DNA of 59,160 bases, taken from the NCBI GenBank assembly GCA_030444405.1, contig JARFPM010000007.1:1-59160 (forward strand), written 5' to 3'. The position numbers were made by a program, and so were the translations under genes. How positions within the stretch are numbered: position 1 is the stretch's first letter; each line of letters starts with the position of its first letter. Positions 49,131 through 59,160 of this stretch are shown one piece after another. The notes under the pieces are model-generated. The model was given only the letters and a program-made list of their open reading frames with translations, was not told where the DNA came from and made no database searches. Source of the DNA: Nitrospira sp. (GTDB lineage Bacteria; Nitrospirota; Nitrospiria; Nitrospirales; Nitrospiraceae).

Positions 49131-51575
49131 ATGTACGTTGGAGCCATGAGAAGATGGCCTCTGATCACATTAGTTCTCTTAGTCCTCCTGCTCGTGTCGT
49201 CTTCCATCGCCCCGGCCCAATCCCCGGTTCGTCTCTCAGGCCTTTCCGGCAGCGGCAATGAGACCGGCAAGTCTGCTGCCCCCGACCTAGCATCGCCTGA
49301 AGAACAGATCAGGGAACTGCGGGAACGGTTGACCGCAGCCGAGGCGGACCTCAATTCAGTCAGCACACCCGGTACCTTGGGAGTTGGTGGTCCTTCAGGG
49401 ACACCGGAGAGCGAATTACTGGAACGCCGTTCCCTCCTCTACCAGCTGGCCCGTGCTTACGAGCAGCAGCTTGAGGACACCCAAAAGCTGCACCAAGCGC
49501 GCGCGCGTCGCGAACAAGTGGAACGAGAGAACCGTGAGTGGACGGACTTTCCCGATCCACCCCCATACTCCGTCCTCGTCGTCGATTCTCTCCGGGACCG
49601 CGCCCGATCTCTGAAACGGACAGTGGAACTGCTCGAGTCCAAGCTAGCCGTCACAACGCGTGCGGCTGAGCGAAGCGAGGAAGCGCTCAAGGCCGCCGAG
49701 CGACGATTGCGGCTGGCTGCCGAGCAACTCGAAATCGTCAAGGATCAGACCCAGACGACTCGACTCACCTGGCTCCGCGACTTGGCTCGCCTGCGTAGCC
49801 GCGCCACGGCCGCCGCAGCCGCCATGCTGACCCAATCGGTGAAGGCCCGTCAGGAGGAACTGATCGAGGCGAAGGCCAGACTGGCCCTCGCGCAGCGCCA
49901 GCTTGCACGAGCCGAGCCCGAGCAACGGTTTAATACGCAGGATTTGGACAAGGTTCGAGAGCGGCTCGAGACGGAACGGAAGGGGTTGGAGGCAGAGCTT
50001 GATCTGGCGCTGAGAGACCAGCGCGTCAGCCATCGTGCCTACGACCAAGCGGTCAGACGGCTCAATGAGTCCAAGACGACGAAATCCCCGGGCGGCAAGG
50101 AATCGCCGAAGGCCGCTGCCACCCGCTCCTTGCTGGTCGACCATGTTGAGTTGGGGCGTGTGCACTCGGAGAACGCCGATATCCGCGTCGAGATGTTGCG
50201 GCATATGTTGGATACCGTGGAGCTGGAACGTCGGATCTGGGAGGGCCGGTTTGCGGTTGCGAGCGAGGACGACGTGGCCAAAGCCCGCGAGGCCTTTCAA
50301 CGTTTGACGCCAGTCATCCAAGAGGCCAAGACCTGGAAAGACTATCTCGGGCAGCAGATCGACATGGCATCGGGACAGGAGGGCGAGTTGGAAACCAGGC
50401 TGCAAAACGCCGCCTCACCGGCCGAGGCGGCGCGCCTGCGCCCGCTCCTAGACCGCTACCGGGAACGGGAGCGAAACTATCAACGTGCGATGGAACGCTC
50501 ACAACAGTTCAATCGTCTGCTTGAATTGCTGCAAGCCCGTTTCGAACAACGGGAGGAAGCGCTTTCGCTCTCGGCCCGCCTGCAGGCGTCGCTCGCCGGT
50601 GCTTCACGCACGCTGACCAACATCTGGGAATTCGAGCTCTTCGCGGTTGAAGACACGATCGAGGTCGACGGCCAGTCCATCAGCGGCCGGCGCAGCGTGA
50701 CGATCGGGAAACTCATTCGCGTCATGCTGTTGTTGGTGCTCGGATACTGGGCCTCCCTGGCCTTGGCCAAGTTTGCGCAACATTTCGCCATCAGCCGGCT
50801 GCAGATGGAAGAACCCGTGGCCGACATCTTCCGCAAGTGGACGATCGCGATTGTGTTCACTGTGGTGCTGATCGTCAGCTTGGCCTGGGTCAAAATTCCG
50901 TTGACCGTGTTTGCCTTCCTGGGCGGAGCGCTCGCGATCGGCATCGGCTTCGGCACGCAGAATCTGCTCAAGAACTTCATCAGCGGCCTCCTGGTCCTCA
51001 TTGAGCGGCCGCTACGTGTGGGTGATCTGATCGAGATCGACGGTGTCGTGGGGGAGGTCCGGAGCATCGGATTCCGCTCATCGACGATCCGTGACGGCAA
51101 CGGCATGGAGATGCATATTCCGAACAGCAACCTCCTGGAGCGGAATCTGAGCAACTGGACCTACTCCAATCGAACAAGGAGGTTCTTCCTGAAGATCGGG
51201 ATCGCCTATGGATCGCCGGTCAAGCGGGTCCGCGATTTGCTGAACGAGGCGGCCGCCCAGCACGGACTGGTGTTGAAGGACCCGGAACCGCTGGTCCTGT
51301 TCGAAGACTTCGGAGACAACGCGCTCATTTTCACGTTGTACTACTGGGTGGCGTTCGCCCCCGGCGTCAACCCGGCGCTGGTCGGCAGCGACCTGCGGTT
51401 CATGATTGAGAAAAGTCTGGCCGATGAGCGAATCGCCGTTTCGTATCCCCAGCGAGATGTCCATCTAGATACCGCCAGGCCCATTGAAATTCACGTAACG
51501 AATCGGGCGGACCAGCCGGTCCATACAGAAGAAGGACGGGAACAGGGTAGGATTCACAATCATCCGACCGCCTGA
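49131..51575 (+). CDS. Large MscS-family mechanosensitive channel with coiled-coil periplasmic domain
   Basis: The 814-residue product starts at ATG 49131 after GGGAGGGATAAGG. It has a signal peptide (WPLITLVLLVLLLVSSS), a long heptad-rich domain of about residues 50-460, then membrane helices near 526-546, 570-590 and 593-625. The pore-lining motif is FLGGALAIGIGFGTQNLLKNFISGLLVLIERP, followed by VGDLIEIDGVVGEVRSIG and the cytoplasmic MscS vestibule. It is of the MscK/MscM-like architecture and would release solutes on hypo-osmotic shock. It stands alone. Confidence 0.9.
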   Translation: MYVGAMRRWPLITLVLLVLLLVSSSIAPAQSPVRLSGLSGSGNETGKSAAPDLASPEEQIRELRERLTAAEADLNSVSTPGTLGVGGPSGTPESELLERRSLLYQLARAYEQQLEDTQKLHQARARREQVERENREWTDFPDPPPYSVLVVDSLRDRARSLKRTVELLESKLAVTTRAAERSEEALKAAERRLRLAAEQLEIVKDQTQTTRLTWLRDLARLRSRATAAAAAMLTQSVKARQEELIEAKARLALAQRQLARAEPEQRFNTQDLDKVRERLETERKGLEAELDLALRDQRVSHRAYDQAVRRLNESKTTKSPGGKESPKAAATRSLLVDHVELGRVHSENADIRVEMLRHMLDTVELERRIWEGRFAVASEDDVAKAREAFQRLTPVIQEAKTWKDYLGQQIDMASGQEGELETRLQNAASPAEAARLRPLLDRYRERERNYQRAMERSQQFNRLLELLQARFEQREEALSLSARLQASLAGASRTLTNIWEFELFAVEDTIEVDGQSISGRRSVTIGKLIRVMLLLVLGYWASLALAKFAQHFAISRLQMEEPVADIFRKWTIAIVFTVVLIVSLAWVKIPLTVFAFLGGALAIGIGFGTQNLLKNFISGLLVLIERPLRVGDLIEIDGVVGEVRSIGFRSSTIRDGNGMEMHIPNSNLLERNLSNWTYSNRTRRFFLKIGIAYGSPVKRVRDLLNEAAAQHGLVLKDPEPLVLFEDFGDNALIFTLYYWVAFAPGVNPALVGSDLRFMIEKSLADERIAVSYPQRDVHLDTARPIEIHVTNRADQPVHTEEGREQGRIHNHPTA

Positions 51576-51831
51576 CGCCGTGCGATTACGTGAGGGCATC
51601 AGGGCCAACGCGCCTGTCGTTTCGTACTAATCGTCGTTCGGCAGAGTTCCCTGACACTCTGTGCGCCATTCGTGATTGGCACGCGACACGCACTGCGCGG
51701 CTTCGGCAGATCCATCATCTGTGCTAGATATCGTTTCTTCCGGCGGAACGTTCCTACCTGACTTCTCCCACTCACCTGCGTTCACTCGCCTGCTCAGCTG
51801 TTCTACGCACTTGACTGGAGTCAATTTGGAT

Positions 51832-51846
51832 GTAACCATTGGTTAC
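51832..51846. promoter_or_regulatory. 15-bp palindrome at the imuB promoter, candidate LexA-type operator
   Basis: GTAACCATTGGTTAC is a perfect 7-bp inverted repeat around one base. It overlaps or abuts TACTAT (51844-51849), a -10 that would start transcription about 5 nt before the imuB ATG at 51861. A repressor bound here would block the promoter. The sequence does not match the E. coli or Bacillus LexA boxes. Confidence 0.5.
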
Positions 51847-51860
51847 TATCCTGACTTGCC

Positions 51861-53042
51861 ATGGACCGTCATATTGCCTGTCTACAGATTCCCGCCTTTA
51901 GAATCGTGTTGGCCCGTGCGATCGACACGTCTCTCCGCAACAGGCCGGTCGCCGTGGCGCCAACCCATACGCCCCGTGCATTGATTCGAGAGATCTCTAT
52001 AGAAGCGCTTCTCGAAGGCCTTCAGCCTGGTATACCCGTCGATCTCGGGCGGCTGATTTGTCCGGCCTTGCGAGTGATCCCTCCGGATTCATCGCTCACA
52101 CAGACCGCCCATCGTGAGCTGCAACGGCAGGTCTCGCCCTTTGCACCAACTTGGGAATCGATCAGGCCCGGCTCGCTTTTCCTAGACCTCACCGGCACAA
52201 CCCGACTCTTTGGTCCCCCTATTGATACGGCAACCCGCATCAGTCGAGAGTTGGCACATCAACAGGGATGGCCCAGCACAATCGGACTGGCAGGGAACAA
52301 GCTGGTCTCCCAGCTGGCCGTAACTACACTGACGAAGCCGCCACAACTCCTATCGATCCATGCCGGTTCCGAACAACCGTTCCTCGCTCCATTGCCGACT
52401 TTGTTGCTTCCCGGCCTCCATCGGGTCCAAACCTCACGGGTTTTACAACGGCTAGAAGATTTAAACCTCCGCACACTCGGTGCGATCGCCTCCGTTTCGT
52501 TAGCACACCTACAGGCCGTCCTCGGCACTCCTGCCAGCCTGCTACACGACTGGGCCCTCGGGATCGATCCTTCCCCGGTACATCCACCAGTCACACAACC
52601 TGTGATCGAACGCTCTCTTCATCTCGACCCAGATGACGTAGATGATCGACTCTTGCTTGGGCGACTCTACCGATTATTAGAGCAGCTTTGCGCCACGCTG
52701 CGGCAACAGCAACGGATATGCCGGTATGTCTCATTGACGGTTCGACACAGCGACCATGTCGAGCAGACGGCAGAAGAAACGCTGCCTCACAGCACATACT
52801 GGGAAGCCGATCTCCAGCCAGTGCTGACACGCCTGTTCTACCGATGTTTCTGTCGTCGGGTGCGTCTCACACGGTTGATACTTCAAGTCAGTCGGCTGGA
52901 AACGCCTGCCTCACAACTTTTGCTTTTTGACGAATCGACGTCCTCACTCCCTCCTCGCGCTCACCGACTCTCGCTGGCCCTAGACAATATCCGCGCGAAG
53001 TTCGGCGACCACGCCTTGGTCTGGGGACGAACTCTGCAATGA
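51861..53042 (+). CDS. imuB: ImuB-like Y-family polymerase homologue, catalytically inactive
   Basis: The 393-residue product aligns with the Y-family fold but lacks the active-site acids: the first motif reads ACLQIPAF in place of xDxDxFF and the second reads SLFLDLTGTTRLFG with no DE pair. Loss of catalytic residues is a hallmark of ImuB, which acts as a hub for the mutasome. It is shorter than most ImuB (about 500), and the C-terminal part after residue 360 is short. Its stop overlaps the dnaE2 start by 4 nt. No imuA is nearby. Confidence 0.85.
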   Translation: MDRHIACLQIPAFRIVLARAIDTSLRNRPVAVAPTHTPRALIREISIEALLEGLQPGIPVDLGRLICPALRVIPPDSSLTQTAHRELQRQVSPFAPTWESIRPGSLFLDLTGTTRLFGPPIDTATRISRELAHQQGWPSTIGLAGNKLVSQLAVTTLTKPPQLLSIHAGSEQPFLAPLPTLLLPGLHRVQTSRVLQRLEDLNLRTLGAIASVSLAHLQAVLGTPASLLHDWALGIDPSPVHPPVTQPVIERSLHLDPDDVDDRLLLGRLYRLLEQLCATLRQQQRICRYVSLTVRHSDHVEQTAEETLPHSTYWEADLQPVLTRLFYRCFCRRVRLTRLILQVSRLETPASQLLLFDESTSSLPPRAHRLSLALDNIRAKFGDHALVWGRTLQ

Positions 53043-56000
53043 AGGCCCAGTTTGTCCACCTCCACGTCCATTCCGATTATTCGCCGATGCGTGGTGTGTC
53101 GCCGCTGGAAGAACTCTGTACCGCGGCACAGCGGCAAGGATCGCCAGCCATGGCCTTGACCGACACAAACGGCCTGTACGGAGCCATTCGGTTTATCGAG
53201 CTGGCAAAGCAACAGGGTCTCCGGCCAATTCTCGGTGCTGAGCTGACGACCGACAACCATCGCGCAGTCTTGCTGGCTAAGACACCGGACGGCTACGCCA
53301 ACCTCTGCCGCCTCCTGTCGGAACGCCACGGCCATCCCTCGTTCGACTTTCTCACCTCGGTCTCACGCTATCGTGATGATCTCATCATCTTCACGGACGA
53401 CGAAGCGGCGCTTACGGTCTGGGCCGCAGAATCGCAGCAGGATCTCTACCTCGAGCTAACCCCTGGGCCGGATATGCATGAGGCAGTCCTCATTGGTCGG
53501 CGTATCGGTCTCCCATTCGTCGCCACCAACCGCGTGTACTTTTCTGGCCCGGATGGCTTTTCCACACATCATCTGTTGCGTGCCATCGCTCTGAATACGA
53601 CGCTGTCACGGCTGCCGGAAGAAGCCTGTTGCACGCCGAGGCAATGGCTGATGCCGCCCGCACTCATGGCATCTCAGTTTCCTCACGTTCCGGATGCGTT
53701 GGAGAATACCGTCCGTATTGCCGAAGCCTGTCACAGCGACTGGCGTTTCGGCGAGACAATCTTCCCAGCCTTTCGCCGGCTGACTGATAAAGACGCATTC
53801 ATGGCACTCAAAGAGAAAACCTATGCTGGTGCCCGTAAACGATACGAGGTTGTCTCTCGAGCGATTCGTGAGCGGATTGAAAAAGAGTTGGCCATCATCC
53901 GAGACAAACACTTCGCCCACTACTTTCTGGTGGTGGAGGAAATCGTTCGTCAGGCGCCTCGCACATGCGGTCGCGGCTCAGTCGCTGCCTCAATCGTATC
54001 TTACTGCCTCAAGATCACCCATGTGGACCCGATCAAACACAATCTTTTCTTCGAGCGGTTTCTCAATCCCGGTCGGAAAGACCCGCCGGACATCGACATC
54101 GACTTTCCTTGGGACGAGCGCGACGACATTTTGAAATGGGTGTTCGCGCAATACGGTGAGCGTCAGGCCGCTATGGTGGCAAATCAGAACAGCCTTGGCT
54201 TCCGGGCCGCAATCCGTGAAACCGCGAAAGTCTACGGCATGCCGTCTGGAGAAATCCGCAGGATGTCTTCCCACATTCTGCGCCAGAAAGATGTTCTGAA
54301 TTTCCCTGCTTCGCCGACTCTCGAGGAATGGCGCCGGCGACTCTCACAGACTCTTCAATTGAAAACGCCTTGGCCAGAAATTCTTGTTCAGGCACTAAAG
54401 GCACAGAACCACTTCCGGCATCTCTCCATGCATTGCGGTGGGGTGGTCATCGTACCGGACGAAATTCGCAGCTACGTGCCGGTTGAATATACCGCCAAAC
54501 GATTGCCGGTCATCCAGTGGGAAAAAGATCAGACGGAGGACGCGGGGCTCGTGAAGATCGACATCCTAGGCAACCGATCGCTGGCTGTGATCCGAGATGC
54601 CTTAGCAGCCATTGCGAAACATACTAGTCGACAGATCGACTATGAAAGCTGGAATCCCTTGGAGGATCCTGCCACACAAGAAGCGATCCGATGCGGCGAT
54701 ACAATCGGCTGCTTCTACATTGAGTCGCCCGCCACGCGCCTCTTATTGAAAAAACTGTGGCTCGGCATGCCCCTACACCGCTACAAACAGCTGGACGTCT
54801 TCGCCTATCTGGTGATGGTTTCGTCTCTCGTGAGACCCGCCACCAATGCCTTCGTCGAAGAGTTTATCCGCCGAGCGCAAGAAGGGTCATGCGCATTCTG
54901 GCATCCCAAGCTGAAGGGCATTTTGGACGAAACCCACGGCATCATGACCTATCAGGAAGACGTCTCGAAGGTGGCCATGGCGCTGGCTGATTTTTCCGTC
55001 GAAGATGCGGATCAGCTACGTAAGGTCATCAGCAAGAAACATAAACAACGGCAACTGCAAGACTACTATCAGCAGTTTTGCCGCGGGGCAGAAAAGAATG
55101 ACGCGTCGCCGGAGACGATCGACAGAATCTGGAAGATGATCATGAGTTTCGCCGGCTACAGTTTTTGCAAACCCCATTCGGCGAGCTATGCGCAGGTCTC
55201 GTTCAAGTCCGCCTATCTCCGAACCCACTATCCGGCCGAGTTCATGGCGGCCGTCATCAGTAACCAAGGCGGCTTTTACTCGACCTTCGCGTATGTCTCG
55301 GAAGCCCGGCGCATGGGACTGGCTATCCTTCTGCCGGATATCAACGAAAGCGACTGGGCCTACAGCGGTGAAGGCGAACGGCTGCGGATCGGCTTGATGC
55401 AGGTCAAGACGATCCCAAAAGAGCTCGGCATGAAGATCGCCGACGAACGCACGCAGAACGGCCCATACCGGTCGTTCCCGGACTTTTTGCAGCGTGTGAA
55501 ACCGGAGCCAGCCCATGCCAGAGCCTTGGTCCGCGCTGGCTGCTGTGACTCCATCGCCGGTGAGCTCACCAGGCCGGCCTTGCTGTGGCGGCTGTACGCG
55601 GGACAGGATGCCGCTGCCGGCCCCTTACCGATCCCAGACGACTATTCTACCGCTCAAAAGCGAGCCCATGAGATCCAGTCATTTGGCTTTCTCGCCAGCC
55701 GTCATCCCTTGACTCTCTATGACAAGCAGATCGAGCGGCTGCGACCGGTGCCGGCTTCCCAGATGCATCAATTCGTTGGCCAACGCATCACCATGGTCGG
55801 TGTGCTGATCACAGAGAAGTCGGCTGAGACGAAACACGGGCAGGCCATGGAATTCATCACCCTCGAAGATGTCACGGCCCTCTACGATGCCACGCTGTTC
55901 CCCGAGGCCTACCGCCGCTGCTGCCATCTCCTCTCTCCAAACCGCCCATACGTCGTCCGTGGGCTGGTGGAAAAGAGCTTCGGCGTCGCGACGTTGACCG

Positions 56001-56095
56001 TGTTCGATCTCCAGCCATTACAACTACCGTGGGGCGCTAAGGCCAACCGGCCTACCATGAGCACGCCAGTGGGCAATTGTGCCCATGAGTTATAG
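53039..56095 (+). CDS. dnaE2: Error-prone DNA polymerase, alpha-subunit type
   Basis: The 1,018-residue product has a PHP domain start FVHLHVHSDYSPMRG, then GRGSVAASIVSYCLKI, PDIDIDFPWDERDD (catalytic acids near residues 351-355), QWEKDQTEDAGLVKIDILG, FAGYSFCKPHSASYA, and a C-terminal OB domain. Length and the pairing with imuB mark it as DnaE2/ImuC, not the replicative DnaE. Expected role is translesion synthesis with ImuB. A strong hairpin overlaps the stop. Confidence 0.96.
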   Translation: MKAQFVHLHVHSDYSPMRGVSPLEELCTAAQRQGSPAMALTDTNGLYGAIRFIELAKQQGLRPILGAELTTDNHRAVLLAKTPDGYANLCRLLSERHGHPSFDFLTSVSRYRDDLIIFTDDEAALTVWAAESQQDLYLELTPGPDMHEAVLIGRRIGLPFVATNRVYFSGPDGFSTHHLLRAIALNTTLSRLPEEACCTPRQWLMPPALMASQFPHVPDALENTVRIAEACHSDWRFGETIFPAFRRLTDKDAFMALKEKTYAGARKRYEVVSRAIRERIEKELAIIRDKHFAHYFLVVEEIVRQAPRTCGRGSVAASIVSYCLKITHVDPIKHNLFFERFLNPGRKDPPDIDIDFPWDERDDILKWVFAQYGERQAAMVANQNSLGFRAAIRETAKVYGMPSGEIRRMSSHILRQKDVLNFPASPTLEEWRRRLSQTLQLKTPWPEILVQALKAQNHFRHLSMHCGGVVIVPDEIRSYVPVEYTAKRLPVIQWEKDQTEDAGLVKIDILGNRSLAVIRDALAAIAKHTSRQIDYESWNPLEDPATQEAIRCGDTIGCFYIESPATRLLLKKLWLGMPLHRYKQLDVFAYLVMVSSLVRPATNAFVEEFIRRAQEGSCAFWHPKLKGILDETHGIMTYQEDVSKVAMALADFSVEDADQLRKVISKKHKQRQLQDYYQQFCRGAEKNDASPETIDRIWKMIMSFAGYSFCKPHSASYAQVSFKSAYLRTHYPAEFMAAVISNQGGFYSTFAYVSEARRMGLAILLPDINESDWAYSGEGERLRIGLMQVKTIPKELGMKIADERTQNGPYRSFPDFLQRVKPEPAHARALVRAGCCDSIAGELTRPALLWRLYAGQDAAAGPLPIPDDYSTAQKRAHEIQSFGFLASRHPLTLYDKQIERLRPVPASQMHQFVGQRITMVGVLITEKSAETKHGQAMEFITLEDVTALYDATLFPEAYRRCCHLLSPNRPYVVRGLVEKSFGVATLTVFDLQPLQLPWGAKANRPTMSTPVGNCAHEL

Positions 56096-56307: not shown

Positions 56308-56559
56308 ATGCGGACAACGATTCGCCTCGATGACCAGCTCCTCAAATCGGCCAAGCGCTTCGCCCATGAGACCGGCCAGTCGCTGACGAAGCTGATCGAA
56401 GATGCGCTGCGTCATAGGCTCGCCCGTCGTGCGGCCAAACCGACACGCAAACCGGTAACACTCACCACCGTATCCGGGCGCGGGCTCCGCTCCGGCGTGG
56501 ACATCGACGATTCCGCCGCCCTCCTCGCCTTCATGGAGCGGCCTCATGGTTCTTCTTGA
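56308..56559 (+). CDS. vapB: VapB-type antitoxin
   Basis: The 83-residue product starts MRTTIRLDDQLLKSAKRFAHETGQSLTKLIEDAL, a ribbon-helix-helix DNA-binding N-terminus, and has a polar C-terminal tail for toxin contact. Its end overlaps the PIN toxin gene by 14 nt. It would autoregulate and neutralise the toxin. Confidence 0.85.
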   Translation: MRTTIRLDDQLLKSAKRFAHETGQSLTKLIEDALRHRLARRAAKPTRKPVTLTTVSGRGLRSGVDIDDSAALLAFMERPHGSS

Positions 56560-56974
56560 CGTCAATGTGCTGGTCTATGCCCACCGCGAAGATGCGCCCC
56601 ACCATCGAGAGCACCTGACCTGGCTCGAAGCGCTGATTCAATCGGAGCAGCCGTATGGACTGTCCGATCTCGTCTTAAGCGGTTTCCTGCGCATCGTAAC
56701 GCATCCCAGCGTGTTCAACCCTCCCAGCAGCATGGAGAAGGCACTGGCTTTTACCCAGGAACTCCGTGATCAGCCGAACTGCACACTCATCAATCCCGGC
56801 CCTCGCCATTGGGACATCTTCACTCGACTTTGCCGAACGGCCGGTATCAAGGGCAGTCTCGTCCCCGATGCGTTTCTGGCTGCTCTTGCGATCGAAAGTG
56901 GAAGTGAATGGATCTCGACGAATCGCGATTACCACCGATTTCCAGGCCTGCGGGTGCGCCATCCTCTGGAATAA
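56546..56974 (+). CDS. vapC: VapC-type PIN-domain toxin
   Basis: The 142-residue product has the PIN motifs: LLDVNVLVYAHR (first Asp), LSDLVLSGFLRIVT, LVPDAFLAALAIESGSEWISTNRDYHRF with the acid triad. PIN toxins are RNases, often cleaving tRNA or rRNA. Paired with the antitoxin upstream. Confidence 0.9.
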   Translation: MVLLDVNVLVYAHREDAPHHREHLTWLEALIQSEQPYGLSDLVLSGFLRIVTHPSVFNPPSSMEKALAFTQELRDQPNCTLINPGPRHWDIFTRLCRTAGIKGSLVPDAFLAALAIESGSEWISTNRDYHRFPGLRVRHPLE

Positions 56975-57458: not shown

Positions 57459-57893
57459 ATGAATCGACACATTTGGTGCTCGACTCTATCCAAACACTCT
57501 GCCCCGTCTTGGCCGTGTCCGGAATGTACTCGGGGGACACTCAAACTTGTTCCAAAGTCTCTTGCATTCAAAGAAACCATTTCCTCACAACGAGCGCATG
57601 GGGCAGAAGGATGGGACCCCGAATTGATTAGTTACACTTTTGCGGCTTGGCTCCAATGCAGTCATATTGTATGCGGCCAGGAAGTTGTCGTCTCCGGTGT
57701 CGGAGGTGTCGAAGCGTGGTACGACAACGAAGAGGGAACTACAGGATGGAGTGATTACTTCGCTCCTCTATGGTGTTCGCCGATGCCTGACCTTTTTCAG
57801 TTTCCCGCAAAATGTCCTGTGGACGTCAAAAAGCAGCTTAGCAGGCTGCGGAAAAACTCTTGCGTTGGCCTGTTCTCTAGAGTAGATCGGTGA
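57459..57893 (+). pseudogene. DUF4145-type protein, 3' part replaced by an insertion sequence
   Basis: From ATG 57459 (AAGGAG site) the product starts MNRHIWCSTLSKHSAPSWPCPECTRGTLKLVPKSLAFKET and continues to LFQFPAKCPVDVKKQL, the N-terminal half of DUF4145-domain proteins. At 57839 the insertion sequence begins; the last 18 codons come from the IS. The DUF4145 C-terminal helical half is therefore missing and lies beyond the window if it survives. DUF4145 genes often lie in accessory and defence islands. Confidence 0.7.
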
Positions 57894-59160
57894 AACTATC
57901 TACAGTCCACTCCAGGAGGGTTGCGATGCGTGGTCAGGATACCCAACAAGCTGGCCTGTTCAGCTACCTGTCGCCCGAGGAGCGCGTCCCGGCGACGCAT
58001 CCCCTGCGACCGATCCGACAATATGTGGACACGGCCCTGACCGCCGTGTCGCCCCAGCTGGAAGCGCTCTATGCCCGGACTGGTCGGCCCTCGATTGCTC
58101 CGGAAAAGCTGCTGCGCGCCCTGTTGTTGCAGCTGCTCTACAGTCTGCGCAGTGAACGGCTGTTGATGGAGGCGTTGCAGTACAACCTCCTGTTCCGCTG
58201 GTTTGTCGGTCTCGATCTGGATGCGCCGGTGTGGGACGTCACCGTCTTCACCAAGAACCGGGACCGCTTGTTGGCGGGGCAGATCGCTACGGCGTTCTTC
58301 GAGCAGGTCTTGGCCCAAGCCAAGGCCCAGCACATCTTGTCCGACGAGCACTTCACCGTGGATGGGACGTTGATCGAAGCCTGGGCGGGCCAGAAGAGTT
58401 TCAAGCCGAAGGCCGGAGCCACGCCGGTCCCACCGCCGGATGATCCGGGCAATCCCAGCGTGGACTTTCGGGGCGAGCGGCGGACGAACGCCACGCACGC
58501 CTCGACGACGGATCCAGAGGCTCGGCTGTACAAGAAGGCCGCGGGCCAGGAGGCGAAGCTGTGCTTTCTGGGCCATGTGTTGATGGAGAACCGTCATGGC
58601 TTGGTGGTCAACGCCACCGTGACCCCGGCGACCGGCACGGCAGAACGGGAGGCGGCGATCGCCTTGCTGAACCGCCGGCCCACCACACGACGGATCACGC
58701 TGGGTGGCGATAAGAACTATGACACCCAGCGGTTCGTCCAGGAGCTCCGAGCGGTGCAGGTCACGCCCCATGTGACCCAGCATACGACAAACCGTGCCAG
58801 TGCGATTGATGGCCGAACCACACGGCATCCTGGTTACGCGATGAGTCAACGGAAGCGCAAACGGGTCGAAGAGATTTTCGGCTGGCTGAAGACAGTCGGG
58901 ATGTTGCGCAAAGTGAAACTCCGTGGCGTGCCGAGAGTCGACTGGCTGTTCACCTTCGCGGCGGCCGCCTACCACCTGGTGCGGATGCGCAATCTCGTGG
59001 AGGCCGCACCATGAGCCGACAGGGTCGCCACGCGCCCCATAGCCCTCAACGGGCTTCCACAGTGGGAAGGCGCCCCGGACGGATGGACTTCGAAGCGACT
59101 CCTGACCGAACGTGGGAGGCCTCTGTCGCCTTCACGTCGCGTTTTTCCGCAGCCTGCTAG
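57839..59160 (+). mobile_element. IS5-family insertion sequence, reaching the window edge
   Basis: Imperfectly bounded by inverted repeats: TAGCAGGCTGCGGAAAAAC (57839-57857) and its reverse complement at 59141-59159, 19 of 19 bases matching. One intact transposase gene lies between. The right end coincides with the window end, so the target duplication cannot be read. It has interrupted the DUF4145-type gene. Confidence 0.88.
57926..59014 (+). CDS. IS5-family transposase (DDE)
   Basis: From ATG 57926 (AGGAGG, 6-nt spacing) the product is 362 residues. It starts MRGQDTQQAGLFSYLSPEERVP and contains HFTVDGTLIEAWAGQKSF (first Asp), LGGDKNYDTQRFVQEL (second Asp) and KRKRVEEIFGWLKTVGMLRKVKLRG (final Glu), a complete DDE set. 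The antisense frame is also open, which is a GC-codon effect. It appears intact and could be active. Confidence 0.93.
   Translation: MRGQDTQQAGLFSYLSPEERVPATHPLRPIRQYVDTALTAVSPQLEALYARTGRPSIAPEKLLRALLLQLLYSLRSERLLMEALQYNLLFRWFVGLDLDAPVWDVTVFTKNRDRLLAGQIATAFFEQVLAQAKAQHILSDEHFTVDGTLIEAWAGQKSFKPKAGATPVPPPDDPGNPSVDFRGERRTNATHASTTDPEARLYKKAAGQEAKLCFLGHVLMENRHGLVVNATVTPATGTAEREAAIALLNRRPTTRRITLGGDKNYDTQRFVQELRAVQVTPHVTQHTTNRASAIDGRTTRHPGYAMSQRKRKRVEEIFGWLKTVGMLRKVKLRGVPRVDWLFTFAAAAYHLVRMRNLVEAAP

Follow-up and report, generated by a model that had tools for sequence, protein, structure and literature searches.

The imuB-dnaE2 translesion operon of a Nitrospira genome is most likely repressed by a LexA-like protein acting on the palindrome GTAACCATTGGTTAC, and the same protein would control its own gene and the gene of a small protein with a clamp-binding-type tail. 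The repression would be lifted by DNA damage, and RecA would take the place of the missing ImuA. The probability of this reading is put at about 0.86. Nitrospira are the chief organisms of nitrite oxidation and of complete ammonia oxidation. Searches of the open-access literature turned up no account of an SOS regulon in them, nor any paper on point that links Nitrospira with LexA or imuB. A non-canonical LexA of the Nitrospirales with its operator, and the divergence of the operator in a duplicated repressor, look new. The lineage thereby gains concrete, testable candidates for a damage-response operator and its repressor, and a further case is added of an XRE-S24 protein that replaces LexA and leaves recA outside.

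The imuB-dnaE2 operon and its promoter

The window is the whole 59,160-nt stretch of DNA that was analysed. It carries imuB (51861-53042) and dnaE2 (53039-56095) on the forward strand, and the two reading frames overlap by 4 bases. The imuB product is an inactive Y-family polymerase homologue of 393 aa with the PF00817 and PF11799 domains, and dnaE2 encodes an error-prone C-family polymerase of 1018 aa with PF07733, PF17657, and PF02811. The mechanosensitive channel gene reported upstream in the preliminary description is indeed present, as an MscK/MscS-type gene at 49131-51575. Just 3' of dnaE2, at 56308-56974, an antitoxin-like frame of the RHH/VapB type overlaps a VapC-type PIN toxin gene (TIGR00028), and a transposase of the IS5 family lies at 57890-59014, close to the contig end.

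The operon is near-leaderless. Its -35 element, read from the sequence, is TTGACT (51811-51816, forward strand), and its -10 element is TAACCA (51833-51838), with a spacing of 16 nt. The palindrome GTAACCATTGGTTAC was confirmed exactly at 51832-51846, with no strand assigned. It had been described as abutting the -10 element; it overlaps this element and covers the -10 region. The palindrome is conserved in the orthologous promoters. It was found 24-36 nt before the ATG in 15/15 window-type imuB orthologues from members of the genus (75-100% identity, own included), and in all 15 a -35 element that is TTGACA or one change from it lies 16-17 nt upstream of the operator. The 16/17-nt spacing is also kept in 29/30 repressor promoters and in nearly all promoters of the small gene.

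Distribution of the operator

Operator sites were located by mismatch-count searches, and the reversed pattern was used as the control. The genome has 3.46 Mb in 170 contigs and is 99.6% complete. Only four loci within 2 mismatches of GTAACCATTGGTTAC were found in it (two exact, one with 1 mismatch, and one with 2 mismatches). The first is the window operon. The second, on contig C106, lies directly 5' of the ATG of a 118-aa frame, the small clamp-motif gene. The third, on contig C18, is just 5' of an S24 repressor gene that is followed by a second imuB-dnaE2 pair. The fourth, on contig C19, lies where another HTH-S24 gene begins. The refuting outcome named earlier, that the motif is missing from every other SOS gene, did not come about: both LexA-like genes, the second imuB-dnaE2 operon, and the small gene carry it. 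The count of three-mismatch sites in this genome was not above that of the reversed control.

The comparison was extended to 78 genomes, which are this genome and 77 relatives. Sites with at most 1 mismatch numbered 62 in 42 of the 78 genomes, and the reversed control gave 16 scattered matches. All but two of the sites (60/62) precede one of three gene types, namely the repressor, imuB, or the small gene. An S24 gene follows 23 of the sites, the small gene 19, imuB 17, and an imuB remnant 1; the other 2 are unexplained. In one relative (L178:1501), the operator persists before the degraded imuB remnant, which shows the loss of the cassette. In two related genomes (L179:1501 and L180:1517), an operator-like site with 1 mismatch is followed after about 135 nt by a 117-aa frame that the two have in common (MARKKPSSDARPG...). 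Several other genera have the repressor gene directly upstream of imuB-dnaE2, a gene order that probably came first. Some members of the genus carry the small gene or the repressor and lack a matching imuB, so the components of the regulon need not occur together.

The LexA-like repressor

The canonical LexA winged-HTH domain PF01726 had no match in this genome, a 170-contig assembly in which a LexA gene could have stayed unassembled. PF00717 gave three matches: the C19 repressor, the C18 repressor, and, weakly, a frame of 372 aa. The C19 protein consists of an N-terminal XRE-type HTH_3 domain (PF01381) and a Peptidase_S24 domain. Its C-terminal half scored 133.7 bits with TIGR00498 (lexA) at a cut-off of 110.95, and its C-terminal part matches LexA structures at about 1e-23. 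The cleavage site Ala66-Gly67 and the Ser100/Lys137 dyad are conserved in 56 repressor homologues.

The palindrome lies 15-18 nt before the start codon in 30/30 of the orphan-type (type A) repressor genes fetched from the genus. The same position was found in 30/30 repressor genes of a phylum-wide fetch that included other genera and families, and some genomes are in both sets. A -35 element of the TTGACA type precedes the palindrome in nearly all the repressor promoters fetched. Within the sampled phylum, strong matches to the repressor are confined to this order, and matches farther out are weak. Among the other lineages of the order, canonical LexA is present in some that have no XRE-S24 repressor; PF01726 matches that are both strong and LexA-sized are restricted to other families of this order. 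Low-scoring PF01726 matches in other genus members, mostly in short frames of 96-142 aa, were rejected as canonical LexA. The operator GTAACCATTGGTTAC is unlike the LexA boxes known to us, and in this we agree with the preliminary description. These data indicate that the cognate protein is almost certainly an XRE-HTH/S24 "non-canonical LexA" and not a canonical LexA.

The canonical LexA of the SOS response shares the LexA-type S24 domain with its Ala-Gly site and Ser/Lys pair, whereas PF01726, and recA as a regulon member, are absent here. The Geobacter LexA1/LexA2 proteins differ in being canonical winged-HTH LexA with the box GGTT-N10-AACC. Two further parallels are HdiR and the non-canonical LexA of Bacteroidetes. 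HdiR of Lactococcus and Streptococcus is a LexA-like S24 repressor whose only targets are its own gene and a gene or cassette for translesion synthesis; in S. uberis it controls just a mutagenic cassette (PMC8565304). It belongs to another phylum, and its target is UmuC, as against an inactive PolY with DnaE2 here. The Bacteroidetes protein also joins a PF01381 HTH to S24 and replaces canonical LexA; it has a palindromic operator with a 5-nt spacer and duplications with diverged motifs (PMC8565304). In contrast, the Nitrospira site is of the GTAAC-N5-GTTAC type, and the regulon is minimal and leaves recA out. What marks both kinds was found here as well, as far as sequence can tell: an XRE/CI-type HTH-S24 fusion, and a palindrome that precedes both its own gene and a translesion operon, in a genome that appears to be without LexA.

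recA promoters and the proposed inducing signal

The operator was absent from the recA promoters of this genome and 30 relatives, where the best alignments had 4-7 mismatches. The recA promoters of the genus are plain and constitutive-looking, GGTATAAT.

The reading proposed here is built on what was read directly from the genomes, that is, the conservation and position of the operator, the gene set, the domains and key residues, the absence of LexA and ImuA, and recA without a site. A dimer of the C19 repressor would bind over the -10 elements of its own promoter, the imuB-dnaE2 promoter, and the promoter of the small gene on C106, and would keep all of them off. Upon DNA damage, filaments of RecA, supplied by a constitutively expressed recA, would trigger cleavage of the repressor at Ala-Gly. 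The cleaved repressor would leave the DNA, which would allow joint production of the small protein, DnaE2, and the inactive Y-family protein. The set would have a mutagenic function, in which the small protein would co-operate with the mutasome. Since recA is outside the regulon, it is the S24 domain and the kind of genes targeted that lead us to infer a response to damage.

The position of recA would also suit an XRE-S24 repressor that binds the palindrome and answers to a signal other than DNA damage, such as heat, Clp proteolysis, or redox, as has partly been reported for HdiR, which is also heat-shock responsive and requires Clp processing (PMC8565304). This is the strongest of the alternatives, but we regard it as unlikely: the LexA-type Ala-Gly site and the Ser/Lys dyad are fully kept, and the targets are translesion proteins.

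The palindrome had also been proposed as the SOS operator of this lineage. The part of the proposal that stands is that the palindrome is lineage-specific and shared with the LexA-like repressor genes. As a general SOS box it would be expected at recA and the usual repair genes too. Its occurrence before the LexA-like genes and two translesion operons speaks for such a box, but the search before recA, which had been suggested as a check, gave the result described above. As judged from the sites, the putative regulon is a minimal mutasome regulon. With the recA promoters free of sites and no further site within 2 mismatches in the own genome, the palindrome does not qualify as a general SOS operator. 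The general SOS box is accordingly given very little probability.

ImuB, DnaE2, and the absence of ImuA

The catalytic residues of ImuB are lost, and D8, D103, and E104 of DinB align to Q, G, and S. The catalytic aspartates of DnaE2 are kept (PDIDIDF and VKIDILG, by alignment to E. coli DnaE). DnaE2 matched NF004225, "error-prone DNA polymerase", with an E-value of 3.5e-174, although the match falls short of the model's cut-off. ImuB has only the IMS and IMS_C domains, and the domain profile search did not find an ImuB-C domain in the window protein. The motif QLLLF (52914-52928, forward strand), which we take to be of the clamp-binding type from its established consensus, keeps its Q and F unchanged across 5 diverse ImuBs. 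Near the C-terminus, the RecA-NT-like motif LSLALDNIRAKFGDHALV (52968-53021, forward strand) aligns to the N-terminus of the own RecA, LDLALSQIEKQYGKGAIM; beyond the motif, ImuB has 6 more residues. In the pairwise alignment, 2/1000 shuffles scored as high; the match is modest and lies in the expected place. The RecA-NT motif was defined in PMC6511836.

No imuA adjoins the window operon. The ImuA profile NF033429 was searched in all 78 genomes, and only RecA- and RadA-sized proteins were matched, all below the cut-off. The single match in this genome is RecA itself, in an assembly of 170 contigs from which an ImuA gene may be missing. The earlier suggestion that ImuA is absent is thus borne out by the profile search. 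In PMC6511836 and PMC12926913, ImuA-less operons of an inactive PolY and DnaE2 are already described with RecA proposed as the substitute, so the missing ImuA is a known variant; the term used for it in PMC12926913 is DnaE2B-iPolY-RecA. Because ImuB carries the RecA-NT-like motif, RecA may replace ImuA here too. ImuB, in the absence of ImuA, would probably bind RecA itself via this C-terminal motif and the clamp via QLLLF, and would bring DnaE2 to the lesion.

The ImuA-ImuB-DnaE2 systems of Mycobacterium, Pseudomonas, and Caulobacter likewise encode an inactive PolY together with DnaE2 as one operon and have a clamp motif in ImuB; the Nitrospira operon differs in lacking ImuA, a detected ImuB-C domain, and a canonical LexA. 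The putative mutasomes of the DnaE2B-iPolY-RecA type (PMC12926913) and of the S. coelicolor DinB2 and G. bemidjiensis DinB2 types (PMC6511836) are alike in having an inactive PolY with RecA-NT beside DnaE2 and no ImuA. As far as the accessible text of PMC12926913 goes, the XRE-S24 control and the extra small clamp-motif protein are features of the Nitrospira case.

Duplicated repressors and diverged operators

A type B repressor precedes the second imuB-dnaE2 pair in many members. The palindromes of type B are at the same promoter position and differ from that of type A, as in GTGACATTATGTCAC, GTAACATTTTGTTAC, and GTGACCATTGGTCAC. The HTH residues of type B and type A also differ. These differences fit a duplication of the repressor that was followed by divergence of the operator, a process that would here be seen in progress, and the type B palindromes form a natural series for operator-repressor co-evolution. 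Type B repressors with diverged palindromes were collected at L063-L082 and L190:1325, and L190 has a tandem pair (GTAACGATTCGTTAC and GTAACGTTTCGTTAC).

These repressors also bear on the possibility that another regulator binds the palindrome and that its position at the repressor gene is incidental. Further XRE-type regulators may well exist in the genome; this explanation is nevertheless weakened because, where the repressor has been duplicated and the HTHs differ, the palindromes at this promoter position differ too. The palindrome is also co-conserved with every type A repressor promoter fetched, in several genera, and we consider another regulator highly improbable. That the palindrome is just a conserved core element of the promoter, as its overlap with the -10 might suggest, or is there by chance can practically be dismissed: there are few such promoters per genome and always before the same genes, the matches of the reversed control are scattered, and both half-sites are conserved although the -10 contains just one of them.

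The second, type B repressor of this genome (C18, L026:8120-8680) has an in-frame TAG stop and a degraded N-terminus and HTH start. The gene may have decayed to a pseudogene at its DNA-binding end, or the assembly may be in error here. Its operator is nearly that of type A. With the C18 repressor degraded and its operator in this state, the type A repressor may control both imuB-dnaE2 operons in this genome.

The small clamp-motif protein

The small gene was present in 22/78 genomes, all of one genus. In the named collection, 36 loci were found with record titles that are nearly all Nitrospira, and the operator lies 15-20 nt before the start codon in 34 of them. No Pfam match of note was obtained for 21 members of the family, and no NCBIfam match for the 118-aa protein of this genome. 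A phage origin was considered and rejected, since none of 52 pattern matches in viral contigs was a relative. The C-terminal QLRLF, which resembles the QLLLF of ImuB, is nearly invariant, with Q and L in 31/31 sequences and F in more than 90%, and the linker before it is variable. The small protein thus looks like a new, uncharacterised, Nitrospira-only family under a putative GTAACCATTGGTTAC operator. It is a family with a probable clamp-binding tail that was found solely through its promoter.

In the predicted structure, a beta-barrel spans roughly residues 4-82 (most pLDDT blocks at 76-87, one loop near 60), and QLRLF sits in a disordered C-terminal tail of low pLDDT. Foldseek returned no match to the small protein at an E-value below 0.001. 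The best structural neighbours are SH3-like barrels, with VIA-align Z of at most 7.3. This likeness is only suggestive and may merely reflect a common arrangement. From the model, the protein may be an SH3-like domain that the tail would tether to the beta clamp. Standalone subunits of the ImuB-C, YolD, or UmuD type were considered as well; the SH3-like neighbours reach the same Z at most, and there is no family match for the small protein. Tentatively, and with somewhat less than even confidence, we propose that it is a mutasome subunit of a new sort, which would be under the same LexA-like repressor as the inactive PolY and DnaE2, would be induced along with them, and would take over the accessory role of ImuA/ImuB-C or UmuD, or else a clamp-directed damage-response factor of an undescribed kind. 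Divergent copies of the small protein at L165-L167 keep the QL(R/G)LF tail, and only a decayed half-operator lies upstream of them.
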